Below, one piece after another: positions 115 through 38,028 of a stretch of 42,437 nucleotides of DNA. Under the pieces are notes generated by a model. That model was given only the letters and a program-made list of their open reading frames with translations. It was not told where the DNA came from and did no database searches. The stretch comes from Thermoleophilia bacterium (GTDB taxonomy: Bacteria > Actinomycetota > Thermoleophilia > Solirubrobacterales > 70-9): positions 1 through 42,437 of the forward strand of contig JAENWT010000020.1 of NCBI GenBank assembly GCA_016650125.1. The letters run 5' to 3'. How positions within the stretch are numbered: the first letter of the stretch is position 1; each line of letters opens with the position of its first letter. The position numbers and the translations under genes are program-made.

Positions 115-158
115 CATCTCTGCGGGCTTTCGGTGCTCGGCGTTCCCAACGTACGTAA

Positions 159-301
159 GCGGGTGGTGCTCAGGGACGTCCTAGGTGCTCCTGCCGAGGA
201 GTAAGCGAAGGTGCCGTAGGGGGCGTACCTCAGTACGTTCCCGAGGCTCCGAGCGTCGACGAAGGTCAGGAGTGCATAGGACGTCCCTGAGGGCTGCCCG
301 C
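159..301 (+). ncRNA. Family-1 structured RNA element, copy A
   Basis: Bases 159-193 pair with 267-301 in a 35-position stem with two mismatches. The stem includes 15 consecutive Watson-Crick pairs (CTCAGGGACGTCCTA) and several G-U pairs that are valid only on the plus strand. Above it is an asymmetric internal loop, CGAGGAGTAAG on one side and GTCGACGAAGGT on the other. A distal 10-bp hairpin (GGGGGCGTAC / GTACGTTCCC, loop CTCA) follows. Copies at 1149-1283 and 36537-36679 share the loop sequences but have different stem sequences. An intrinsic terminator follows at 320-347, so an independent small RNA of roughly 190-200 nt ending there is plausible. It lies just past the 3' end of the minus-strand DUF4389 gene. 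I do not recognise a known family. Confidence 0.6.
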
Positions 302-319
302 CACCTCAGGTCTTAACGA

Positions 320-347
320 GAAAGGGCGGCCCTGAGGCCGCCCTTTC
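320..347. terminator. Bidirectional intrinsic terminator
   Basis: GAAAGGGCGGCC pairs with GGCCGCCCTTTC around a CTGA loop (12-bp stem). It is followed on the plus strand by a T-rich tract at 351-357. It could end both the family-1 RNA on the plus strand and the DUF4389 gene on the minus strand. A near-identical hairpin follows family-1 copy B at 36698-36725. Confidence 0.75.
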
Positions 348-1028: not shown

Positions 1029-1148
1029 CGGAAGGCTCCTTATGACTAACTCCCAGGCCATTCCCGGGATTACCACCTGAAACTTACTCCGCCAGCAAGC
1101 GGAATCCTGTCAAAGAGACGAGAATTTCACTGAGAGATTCATCCAAGT

Positions 1149-1283
1149 GGTGCACGGGGGCTGCCTGAAAGCGGCTGGCGAGGAGTAAAGGCAGGGAATG
1201 ACCGCGATCGTACCCGCGTACTTGAGCTGTCATTCCCTGCCGTCGACGAAGTCCAGGCGCTGCTCAGGCAGTTCCCGGGCGCC
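1149..1283 (+). ncRNA. Family-1 structured RNA element, copy C
   Basis: GGTGCACGGGGGCTGCCTGA (1149-1168) pairs with 1264-1283 over 20 positions with one mismatch and three G-U pairs valid only on the plus strand. The stem continues with GCG/CGC and CTGG/CCAG pairs. The conserved loop sides GAGGAGTAAA and GTCGACGAAG come next. A distal stem of 13 perfect pairs (GGCAGGGAATGAC / GTCATTCCCTGCC) carries a large loop. The stem sequences are unrelated to copies A and B, yet the loop is retained. This copy ends 9 bp from the ilvC stop codon and has no terminator of its own, so a plus-strand transcript would run antisense into ilvC. The element may equally serve as the 3' structure of the ilvC mRNA. 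Confidence 0.6.
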
Positions 1284-1292
1284 GCTTGTTAC

Positions 1293-2318
<1,026 letters not shown>

Positions 2319-34905: not shown

Positions 34906-36303
34906 ATGACCAAGCCCAAGCACCCCACGCCGCAGCAGAAGTTTAATCCCGAGAGGGAACAGTTGCTGGTGGAGAGTTACTTCACCGAGCCTGCCGCAAG
35001 TCACACCATGCCGGAGGTCGGAGTCACTCCTCGCGCCGCCTACAACGTCATCGCCACGGAGATGGAGCTTGACGGCGATCCGAACAAGAACCTGGCCACC
35101 TTCGTGACCACCTGGATGGAGCCTGAGGCGAAGCAGCTGATCAGCGACAGCCTCCACAAGAACTACATCGATCACGCCGAGTACCCACGTACCGCCGAGA
35201 TCTCAAAACGCTGCGTCCGCATGATCCACGGCCTCTTCAACGGTCCCGAAGGCCAGGACTCCCCCGGTACCGCCTGCGCCGGCTCATCCGAAGCGGTGAT
35301 GCTCGGCGCTCTCTCGATGAAGTGGAACTGGAAGAACCGCCAGGAAAAGGCCGGCAAGCCTACGACCAAGCCAAACCTCGTCTACGGATCCGACGTCCAC
35401 GTTGTCTGGGACAAGTTCTGCCGCTACTTCGACGTCGAGCCCCGCAACATTCCGATTCCCAAGGGCAAGACGGTCATGGGCCCGGACGACTTCCGCGAGC
35501 ACATAGACGAAAACACGATCGGTGTGATCGGTGTGGTCGGCACCACCTTCACGGGCCAGTGCGACGACGTCGTCGGCATCGACCAGATGCTGACCGAGCT
35601 GAAGGGCAAGGGCCTCGAGGTGCCGATGCACATCGACGGTGCCTCCGGAGGATTCGTCTTCCCGTTCTCCGAACCGGACTTCACCTGGGACTTCCGCCTC
35701 GATTCGGTCGTGTCGATCAACGCCTCCGGCCACAAGTTCGGCCTGGTCTACCCCGGCATCGGCTGGCTGATCACCCGGACCGACGCCCAGGTGCCGGAAG
35801 ACCTCATCTTCTACGAGGACTACCTCGGCGAGAAGGACGCGACCTTCACCCTGAACTTCTCGGGCAGCTCGTCCTTCGTTCTGGCCCAGTACTACCAGTT
35901 CATCCGCCTGGGTCACAGCGGCTACAGCTCGGTCGTGCGAGCCATGACCAAGAACCGTCACGCCCTGGCCGACCGCCTGCGCGACATGGATGCGCTCACG
36001 GTCTACGACGACGACAACCCCACCCTGCCGCTGCTGATCGCCAAGACGAACGACAACGAGTCATTCGACAGCAACGACCTGGTCGGCGAGCTGGCCCGGC
36101 GCCGCGGCTGGATGGTCCCGGCCTATCAGATGCCCCCCGACAACGAGAACGACCGGATCATGCGAATGCTGGTCAAGTTCAACCAGACCCGCGAACTGGT
36201 CGACGCCCTCTGCGACGACTTCGAAGCCTCGATCACCTATCTGCGCAAGCGGGGCGAGGGCAAGGACCCAACACCCCCGGTCCATACGGGTCACGGTTAC
36301 TAG
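34906..36303 (+). CDS. Glutamate decarboxylase
   Basis: PLP-dependent group II decarboxylase that turns glutamate into GABA and CO2, used in acid resistance or the GABA shunt. It has 465 aa, the GadB length. Visible: the N-terminal block EYPRTAEISKRCVRMI, TACAGSSEAVMLGAL, VHVVWDKFCRYFDVEPR, HIDGASGGFVFPF, the PLP lysine Lys277 in INASGHKFGLVYPG, and a C-terminal part ending PPVHTGHGY. No glutamate/GABA antiporter is nearby, so an acid-resistance role is not established here. ATG at 34906 is the clear start. Confidence 0.93.
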   Translation: MTKPKHPTPQQKFNPEREQLLVESYFTEPAASHTMPEVGVTPRAAYNVIATEMELDGDPNKNLATFVTTWMEPEAKQLISDSLHKNYIDHAEYPRTAEISKRCVRMIHGLFNGPEGQDSPGTACAGSSEAVMLGALSMKWNWKNRQEKAGKPTTKPNLVYGSDVHVVWDKFCRYFDVEPRNIPIPKGKTVMGPDDFREHIDENTIGVIGVVGTTFTGQCDDVVGIDQMLTELKGKGLEVPMHIDGASGGFVFPFSEPDFTWDFRLDSVVSINASGHKFGLVYPGIGWLITRTDAQVPEDLIFYEDYLGEKDATFTLNFSGSSSFVLAQYYQFIRLGHSGYSSVVRAMTKNRHALADRLRDMDALTVYDDDNPTLPLLIAKTNDNESFDSNDLVGELARRRGWMVPAYQMPPDNENDRIMRMLVKFNQTRELVDALCDDFEASITYLRKRGEGKDPTPPVHTGHGY

Positions 36304-36438: not shown

Positions 36439-36458
36439 AAGCCCCCAGCGAGACCACG

Positions 36459-36496
36459 AAAGTCCCCGATAATCCCGGACTTTCGGGATCTCGACG
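36459..36496. repeat. Palindromic repeat with conserved flank, copy 2
   Basis: AAAGTCC and GGACTTT arms surround GATAATC-type centre bases. The block GACTTTCGGGATCTCGACG (36478-36496) is identical to that in copy 1. The arms differ from copy 1 but stay largely complementary. Confidence 0.6.
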
Positions 36497-36536
36497 AAAG
36501 GAGGCTCCCGAGACTCGGCTTTTCCACGGAACGTAA

Positions 36537-36679
36537 GTGGGTGGTTCCCGGTGGTCTCCTGGGTGCGCCTGCCGAGGAGTAAGCGAAGGTGGTGACGGGG
36601 GCGCACTTTCGTGCGTTCCCAAGGCTCCGAGCGTCGACGAAGGTCAGGCGTGCGTAGGTGGCCAGCGGGGGCCGCCCGC
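36537..36679 (+). ncRNA. Family-1 structured RNA element, copy B
   Basis: Bases 36537-36571 pair with 36645-36679 over 35 positions, exactly the stem length of copy A, with three mismatches and eight G-U pairs that hold only on the plus strand. The internal loop GCCGAGGAGTAAGCGAAGGT / GAGCGTCGACGAAGGTCAGG is identical to copy A. The distal hairpin reads GGGGGCGCAC / GTGCGTTCCC, where copy A has T-A in place of one C-G pair: a compensatory change. The basal CGCC/GGCG pairs likewise replace CTCC/GGAG. An intrinsic terminator follows 18 bp later. Confidence 0.65.
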
Positions 36680-36697
36680 CACCTCATGTCTGCAATA

Positions 36698-36725
36698 GAA
36701 AGGGCGGCCTGCTGGCCGCCCTTTC
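36698..36725. terminator. Bidirectional intrinsic terminator
   Basis: GAAAGGGCGGCC, loop TGCT, GGCCGCCCTTTC. The stem is the same as at 320-347 and the loop differs. It ends family-1 copy B on the plus strand and probably the acyl-CoA dehydrogenase gene on the minus strand. Confidence 0.75.
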
Positions 36726-36753: not shown

Positions 36754-38028
36754 CTACTTGATGTGGTGTCCCGAAATCGCTCGGGAAATCACGAGGCGTT
36801 GGATCTCGCTGGTTCCTTCGAAGATGTCGTAGATCTTCGCGTCGCGGTGCATTCTCTCCACCGGAAACTCGCGGGTGTATCCGTTGCCGCCCAGGATCTG
36901 GATGGCCCGTTCGGTGACCCAGGTGGCGACTTCGCCGGACTTGAGCTTCGACATCGAACCTTCGGCGTTATTGAACGGGACCTGGTTTCGGCCCATCCAG
37001 GACGCACGCCAGACCAGCAGCCTCGCGGCGTCGATCTCCATCTTCATGTCGGCGAGGGTGAAGGCGATCGCCTGGTTCTCGACGATCGGCTTGCCGAACT
37101 GGACCCGCTCCTTGGCGTAATCGAGGGCGAATTCGTAGGCGGCACGGGCGATACCGATCGCCTGGGCACCGACCACGGGACGGCTGGCCTCGAAAGTCGC
37201 CATGGCGGCCTGAGACTTGCCCTTCTTGCCCTCACGGACCCGGGCGAGGCGCTCGTCGAGCTTCTCCTTGCCGCCCAGCAGGCACTTGCCGGGCACCCGG
37301 CAGTCGTCGAGGTGCACGTCGGCGGTGTGGGAAGCACGGATGCCGTGCTTCTTGACCTTGGCGCCCTGCTCGCAGCCGGGGGTGTTCGGCGGAATGATGA
37401 AGGCGGCGTGGCCGCGTGAGCCGAGCTCACGGTCGACCGAGGCGATGATCACGTGGACGTTGGCGATGCCACCGTTGGTGGCCCAGGCCTTCTGGCCGTT
37501 GATCACCCATTCGTCGCTGGCCTCGTCGTACTTGGCCATCGTGCGAACGGCGGATACGTCGGAACCTGCATCCGGCTCAGACGAGCAGAACGCGGCGACC
37601 TTGACGTCGTCAGCGGTGCCGAAGCACTGCGGGATCCATTCGCCCATCTGCTCGGGCGTACCTTGACCGAAGATCGACGCTACGGCCAGCGTGGTACCGG
37701 AAATCGCCATGCCGATGCCGGCGTCTCCCCAGAACATCTCTTCGTTGACGAGCGGCAGGCTGAGTCCACTTTCGTCGGCGAAGAACTGGGCAATGCCATC
37801 AAAGCCATAGAGCCCGATCTTGGCGGCCTCCTGGACTATTTCCCAAGGGAATTCCTCCCGCTCGTCCCATTCGTGGGCGGCCGGGCGCATGACGCCTTCG
37901 GCGAACCCGTGCACCCATTCCTGGATGTCCTTCTGGTCCTGGTTCAGTTCGAGGCTGAACGGCGGCTTCTCGTCCACGGTTCCGGCCTGCTCCTGGGGGA
38001 TTTCTTCGGAAGTCTCAATCACAGTCAT
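36754..38028 (-). CDS. Acyl-CoA dehydrogenase
   Basis: FAD enzyme that inserts the alpha-beta double bond in acyl-CoA, passing electrons to ETF. It has 424 aa. Visible: the N-terminal helical domain; CSSEPDAGSDVSAVRT, the flavin/substrate loop of the beta domain; INGQKAWATNGG; RVQFGKPIVENQAIAFTLAD; AIQILGGNGYTREFPVERM; and catalytic Glu404 in DIFEGTSEIQRL. The first 25 residues are acidic and variable. Chain-length preference cannot be read. ATG at 38028 is preceded six bases upstream by a -10-like TAACAT. A perfect palindrome at 38070-38085 is a candidate repressor site. It lies downstream of dnaE but likely has its own promoter. Confidence 0.9.
   Translation of the reverse strand: MTVIETSEEIPQEQAGTVDEKPPFSLELNQDQKDIQEWVHGFAEGVMRPAAHEWDEREEFPWEIVQEAAKIGLYGFDGIAQFFADESGLSLPLVNEEMFWGDAGIGMAISGTTLAVASIFGQGTPEQMGEWIPQCFGTADDVKVAAFCSSEPDAGSDVSAVRTMAKYDEASDEWVINGQKAWATNGGIANVHVIIASVDRELGSRGHAAFIIPPNTPGCEQGAKVKKHGIRASHTADVHLDDCRVPGKCLLGGKEKLDERLARVREGKKGKSQAAMATFEASRPVVGAQAIGIARAAYEFALDYAKERVQFGKPIVENQAIAFTLADMKMEIDAARLLVWRASWMGRNQVPFNNAEGSMSKLKSGEVATWVTERAIQILGGNGYTREFPVERMHRDAKIYDIFEGTSEIQRLVISRAISGHHIK

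Follow-up and report, generated by a model that had tools for sequence, protein, structure and literature searches.

Three intergenic hairpins in a 42,437-nt stretch of DNA from a Thermoleophilia bacterium (contig JAENWT010000020.1, positions 1 to 42,437; hereafter the window) share one internal loop within long stems whose sequences differ from copy to copy. Do such copies represent a structured RNA, as the original prediction from the window proposed, or something that moves? On balance we favor, at little better than even strength, a non-autonomous family of dispersed hairpins, about 155 bp long, that behaves like repetitive extragenic palindromic (REP) sequences or miniature inverted-repeat transposable elements (MITEs), has a new architecture, and is seated in one orientation at stop codons.

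A conserved fold specific to one strand

The copies lie where they were predicted (159-301, 1149-1283, and 36537-36679; A, B, and C below), and both strands of the shared loop, GAGGAGTAA and GTCGACGAAG, are exact in each. The compensatory changes described for the stems (CTCC/GGAG to CGCC/GGCG, and GTAC/GTAC to GCAC/GTGC) are seen when the copy at 159 is compared with that at 36537. Basal stems of 35 positions in both A and B, as originally claimed, did not survive refolding, which over these spans gives 35 pairs for A and 28 for B. As plus-strand RNA, all three fold far below shuffled sequences (z = -9.8, -7.8, and -7.8 for A, B, and C); folding is weaker on the minus strand, where the third copy does not outdo its shuffles (z = -1.0).

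The same fold is maintained across the genus. Among 96 genus copies, 93.7% of cells are paired, changes are seen on both sides in 38 of 42 pairs, and the covariation score of 0.495, against 0.170 in shuffles, was reached by 0 of 500 shuffles; the alignment was fitted to a covariance model, which favors structure, yet the gap between the scores is still large. Sliding the partners by a single column destroys the pairing (32-44% paired), and the same covariation behavior is shown by 21 distinct copies sampled independently in other genera and families. From base to tip, the architecture consists of a drifting basal stem, a loop of G-A mismatches split by single pairs, and an apical hairpin that comes in at least three subtypes. 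One pair inside the internal loop covaries between G-C and A-U (70 and 20 copies, respectively), and across families the loop covaries from A/G to C/A.

The original observation on G-U pairs, that they favor the plus strand, extends to the whole family: 455 G-U pairs stand against 54 A-C pairs, and in each of the 94 copies compared the plus strand folds more stably. We therefore conclude that selection sees one strand, in single-stranded form. Judged from sequence, the family has the usual mark of a structured RNA, a fold conserved through compensatory changes on a single strand. However, the pairing data fit folded RNA and folded single-stranded DNA equally, and the element may act as either; the prediction of an undescribed structured RNA thus stands for the fold, the covariation, the strand specificity, and the lack of an Rfam match, and not for the choice of RNA over DNA. 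Chance or a simple palindrome is ruled out by the shuffles, the slid partners, and the control on the other strand. Quasi-palindrome correction during replication could give paired stem changes without selection, but predicts neither the 455:54 bias nor a conserved loop that escapes correction.

Distribution across the class

BLAST found 20 matches in the source genome (2.83 Mb), in which a covariance model built from 15 copies (R1) detects 24 strong ones, including the three of the window. The unit is about 155 nt long (roughly 150-160 nt). R1 also matched 14 of 18 genomes of the genus, which a pattern scan of named genomes places among metagenome-assembled genomes (MAGs) of the Solirubrobacterales (HKST-UBA63, HKST-UBA64, SSF62, and a WHONDRS bin). 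In sister genera the loop reads AAGGACGCAGGGA / CGACYGAGGAC, and in other families AAGGCCGCAGGGAG / CGACYGAGAAC. A second model (R2), built on the sister-genus variant, scored in 171 of the 349 class genomes and in 27 of 396 phylum genomes; the remaining 369 of the latter, in which it matched nothing, act as a specificity control. Copies in relatives were read as sequence stretches. The further copies and strong covariation are what the original prediction had proposed looking for with a covariance model.

The window has no match in Rfam 15, in which no family's gathering cut-off was reached, in line with the earlier failure to recognize a named family; sensitive Rfam scans, run on copies A and B as well as on copies from sister genera, gave chance-level matches only. 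The papers brought up by searching the literature for the loop sequences were all unrelated, and within the literature and Rfam searched the family is apparently undescribed. Among those papers, GUCGACGAAG and the ten-letter loop strand GTCGACGAAG (window 255-264) turn up in two on plant viroids, which we take as coincidence. A phage or viral origin was considered and dropped after an exact-motif scan of IMG/VR found no match, and an exact-pattern match in an alphaproteobacterial MAG was dismissed as chance, since it scored 21.5 bits and does not fold like the family.

Placement and orientation at stop codons

Placement was counted for 116 genus copies. For 96 of these the next gene downstream is on the opposite strand, so that the copy is antisense to it, and 73 of the 96 reach to within about 10 nt of its stop codon. 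Another 12 end 51-110 nt from the opposing stop, several with a terminator-like hairpin in between. Only four copies lie equally close behind a same-strand upstream gene. An exact join of GCCGCCCGGG to the stop codon recurs at more than 10 loci in several genomes, and convergent gaps hold 49 of the 116 copies. At two orthologs of the copy B site in sister species, which lack the element, a terminator-like hairpin stands behind the same stop codon instead.

Across 55 distinct joins the stop codon is TAG in 39 cases, TAA in 11, and TGA in 5, against 54, 20, and 85 for other nearby genes (p = 1.5e-9 for TGA). A TA-dinucleotide target is attractive within the genus but unsupported outside it. Sister genera largely keep the placement and do not avoid TGA, and in other families orientation is mixed.

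Spread and exchange at orthologous sites

About 20 sites are occupied in at least two species, yet for only 10 of 52 copies is the ortholog the nearest relative. Orthologous sites often hold different sublineages or apical subtypes in sister species, the same convergent gap may hold copies of opposite orientation, and some whole copies stand next to left halves or right-end remnants of earlier ones; one genome carries adjacent tandem copies. The different sublineages at orthologous sites, together with the half-copies beside whole ones, lead us to conclude that the family spreads. Sublineage exchange, remnants, and fixed orientation are the behavior of a mobile hairpin element and unlike that of an ordinary non-coding RNA (ncRNA) gene, and all of these, with the dispersal itself, were missed in the original prediction, whose interpretation is partly supported.

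The half-elements are broken at or near the conserved loop, four of them upstream of whole copies (L231, L233, L218, and L071) and two downstream (L213 and L239), as if an older copy loses one arm once a new one arrives.

Two copies at different loci (L033 and L034) are 98% identical up to CCACCTCA, immediately after which they diverge. Both end before terminators that differ, and the terminator therefore belongs to the host gene and is ruled out as part of the repeated unit. The original prediction noted near-identical terminators at the ends of two copies; the terminator-like hairpins behind copies A and C are indeed near-identical, but lie outside the unit.

The copies in the window

Table 1. 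Coordinates of the element copies, their internal loops, and adjoining hairpins in the window.
Feature	Position	Strand	Basis
Element copy A; apical subtype a	155..308	+ (foldable strand)	cmsearch with R1, 146 bits; fold; context
Copy A, conserved internal loop, 5' side, GAGGAGTAA	196..204	+	
Copy A, conserved internal loop, 3' side, GTCGACGAAG	255..264	+	
Terminator-like hairpin of host gene next to copy A; outside repeated unit	321..346	not assigned	
Element copy B; apical subtype c	1139..1296	+ (foldable strand)	cmsearch with R1, 131 bits; context; Pfam
Copy B, conserved internal loop, 5' side, GAGGAGTAA	1180..1188	+	
Copy B, conserved internal loop, 3' side, GTCGACGAAG	1242..1251	+	
Element copy C; apical subtype a	36533..36686	+ (foldable strand)	cmsearch with R1, 145 bits; context; Pfam
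Copy C, conserved internal loop, 5' side, GAGGAGTAA	36574..36582	+	
Copy C, conserved internal loop, 3' side, GTCGACGAAG	36633..36642	+	
Terminator-like hairpin of host gene next to copy C; outside repeated unit	36699..36724	not assigned	

Copy A lies about 66 nt past the end of a DUF4389 gene (375-1028, minus), behind the terminator-like hairpin of that gene. The 3' end of copy B overlaps the TAG stop (complement at 1293-1295) of a ketol-acid reductoisomerase gene (1293-2297, minus; Pfam KARI_N/KARI_C). Copy C sits in a convergent gap between genes for a pyridoxal-dependent decarboxylase (34906-36303, plus) and an acyl-CoA dehydrogenase (36754-38028, minus), both assigned by Pfam, and lies beyond the terminator of the latter. 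Because the genes were called with a purpose-built codon-usage finder, single gene coordinates carry some error.

Palindrome arrays (about 45 nt, several families) occur upstream of the element at 66-114 and 36450-36492, with families including GAAGTGACCGG.../...CCGGTCACTTC and GAGACCACGAAAGT.../...ACTTTCGGGATCTC, and similar arrays precede it at L034, L036, L039, L044, and L048. A CTCGGC-TTTTC box recurs between the arrays and the element, and a further hairpin family, TCGGTCTACCGYGGNGGCGGGCAAAA...AACCAGGAGAACAAGCTCCTGGTTTTTGCCC, is found upstream of L034, L036, L044, and L048. The intergenic regions upstream of the element look like mosaics of several hairpin repeat families.

Mobile hairpin or host RNA

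We hypothesize that the folded single strand is read by a cell factor, most likely a protein, which recognizes its loop and not the sequence of its stems. Folded single-stranded DNA, or RNA, would be the recognized form, and a dedicated activity would copy or seat the element. New copies would arise one way round, with the foldable strand's 3' end against either the stop codon of an opposing gene or the far side of that gene's terminator. At a stop codon, a copy occupies the usual place of the gene's own terminator, and seated copies would take over its 3'-end duty. A stricter form of this proposal holds that these are class-wide hairpins recognized only as a folded single strand (RNA or single-stranded DNA), via the G-A-rich loop, and seated in a single orientation directly behind stops by an enzyme of an unrecognized kind; this we advance tentatively, as a minority possibility.

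Several results count against a mobile hairpin. Mobilizers were sought among four families: Y1 and Y2 transposases, reverse transcriptases, and integron integrases. Y1_Tnp (PF01797) was not found in the source genome or in nearly all of its family, and in family f1 was reported only in genomes G003 and G041; a reverse transcriptase was not found in the source genome, and within the genus only in G003. The integron integrase TIGR02249 did not reach its cut-off in the source genome, and exceeded it in 0 of 16 genus genomes and in one of 26 genomes overall. The Y2 search gave no match either, but was silent in every control genome too and so carries little weight. Sequence words common to the two flanks do not exceed in length those seen when the flank pairings are shuffled, which gives no target-site duplication for ends that are not base-mapped. 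The preference for TAG and TAA is absent from the sample of other genera and families (6 TAG and 7 TGA among opposing genes), and a simple TA target therefore cannot explain placement throughout. Finally, some orthologous pairs of the same sublineage are inherited, and their rods retain 91-94% identity with compensatory changes, whereas the 120 nt upstream retain 37-52% (94% against 52% in one pair, 91% against 37% in another). Rods so much better kept than the sequence beside them suggest selection in place, and the same contrast can also arise from conversion or recent replacement.

As an observation apart from these, the locus L290 (G033:C12:36631-37569), from another family of the same order, encodes a full integron integrase (378 bits against a cut-off of 265 bits).

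These inherited rods also speak for a host function, in which the foldable strand, transcribed towards an opposing gene, would form a rod that stops or processes antisense or convergent transcripts, together with a bound protein, just before they enter a coding region, with copies spread by conversion and kept at gene ends by selection. The orientation and placement match the need for a barrier to antisense transcription, 49 of the 116 sites lie in convergent gaps, and only the strand that is read in the direction of the gene tolerates G-U pairs. However, for 40 of the 116 copies transcription of the upstream gene does not yield the foldable strand, orientation is mixed in other families, sites are empty in some sister species, and orthologous sites usually hold other sublineages. 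We rank this explanation second, as possible but rather doubtful. It is unlikely that the copies are instead independent genes for stand-alone structured small RNAs, each with its own promoter. So strong and strand-specific a fold is typical of ncRNAs, and the CTCGGC-TTTTC box and palindrome upstream are common to many source-genome copies, but several copies, B included, lack the box, the unit stops before any terminator, and two dozen near-equivalent small RNA genes at stop codons would be odd.

Two known kinds of folded element are disfavored. An attC-like recombination site of an integron-type system, seated behind a stop codon and folding on the antisense strand, would share the polarity and placement observed here, as well as drifting stems with conserved unpaired features. 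We consider it very improbable: GTTRRRY/RYYYAAC boxes occur near the ends, on either strand, in only 8 of 94 copies, the integrase result given above applies equally, and the flanking genes are syntenic on both sides at several sites, from which it follows that these sites are not gene cassettes. Least probable of all are REPs mobilized by REP-associated tyrosine transposases (RAYTs; Y1 HUH enzymes), which are also dispersed hairpins downstream of genes (PMC3733652). The element measures 155 bp and not 20-40 bp, only 5-12 of 94 copies carry a GTAG/CGTC tag close to one end or the other, and Y1_Tnp is missing as described.

We thus place a mobile hairpin of REP- or MITE-like behavior first and a host 3'-end or antisense-barrier RNA after it, and the two overlap, in that a mobile hairpin, once seated behind a stop, may well be retained because of its effect there. 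Few dispersed bacterial hairpins keep a complex internal loop class-wide while their stems drift, and we know of none that is locked in orientation to stop codons without a recognizable mobilizer. If the favored reading is true, actinobacteria would contain an undescribed RNA- or single-strand-DNA-binding activity, and the copies would amount to a natural experiment that shows how the 3' ends of genes respond to a strong hairpin at the stop codon. The two covariance models and more than 100 placed copies make both questions directly testable.

Comparison with known systems

With bacterial MITEs such as ERIC, NEMIS, Bcr1, and RUP (listed in PMC3733652), the element shares a size within 70-300 bp, an intergenic, non-coding nature, a nearly full-length fold, and spread without a gene of its own; its near full-length inverted arms, lack of coding capacity, and 24 dispersed copies in the source genome are all MITE traits. 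It differs in that neither a target-site duplication nor a parent transposase among the families searched was detected, and in that the stem sequence drifts while the internal loop is held, which is the opposite of recognition by end sequences. Its covariation support is of the same kind as that of structured ncRNA families in Rfam, from which it is set apart by the absence of an Rfam 15 match and by being multi-copy and spreading. Integron attC sites lie behind stop codons, fold best on the antisense strand, and have stems that are free to drift. The element resembles them in all three respects, but has no R and L boxes and no integrase above the cut-off, and occupies single syntenic sites rather than cassette arrays.

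REPs and bacterial interspersed mosaic elements (BIMEs), of the GTAG and CGTC super-families, are dispersed intergenic hairpins of 20-40 nt found mostly downstream of genes (Di Nocera et al. 2013, PMC3733652), and in that dispersal, in the downstream position, and in drifting stems with G-T pairs the element is like them. Unlike them, it is about 155 nt long, carries a complex conserved internal loop, keeps a fixed orientation to the stop codon, and has neither a GTAG/CGTC tag nor a RAYT in the source genome. In E. coli, many REPs lie 1-20 nt behind stop codons, and those within 15 nt are reported to lower translation (PMC12306157). By analogy, and with no kinship claimed, this effect may serve as a precedent for hairpins that have a function at the stop codon.
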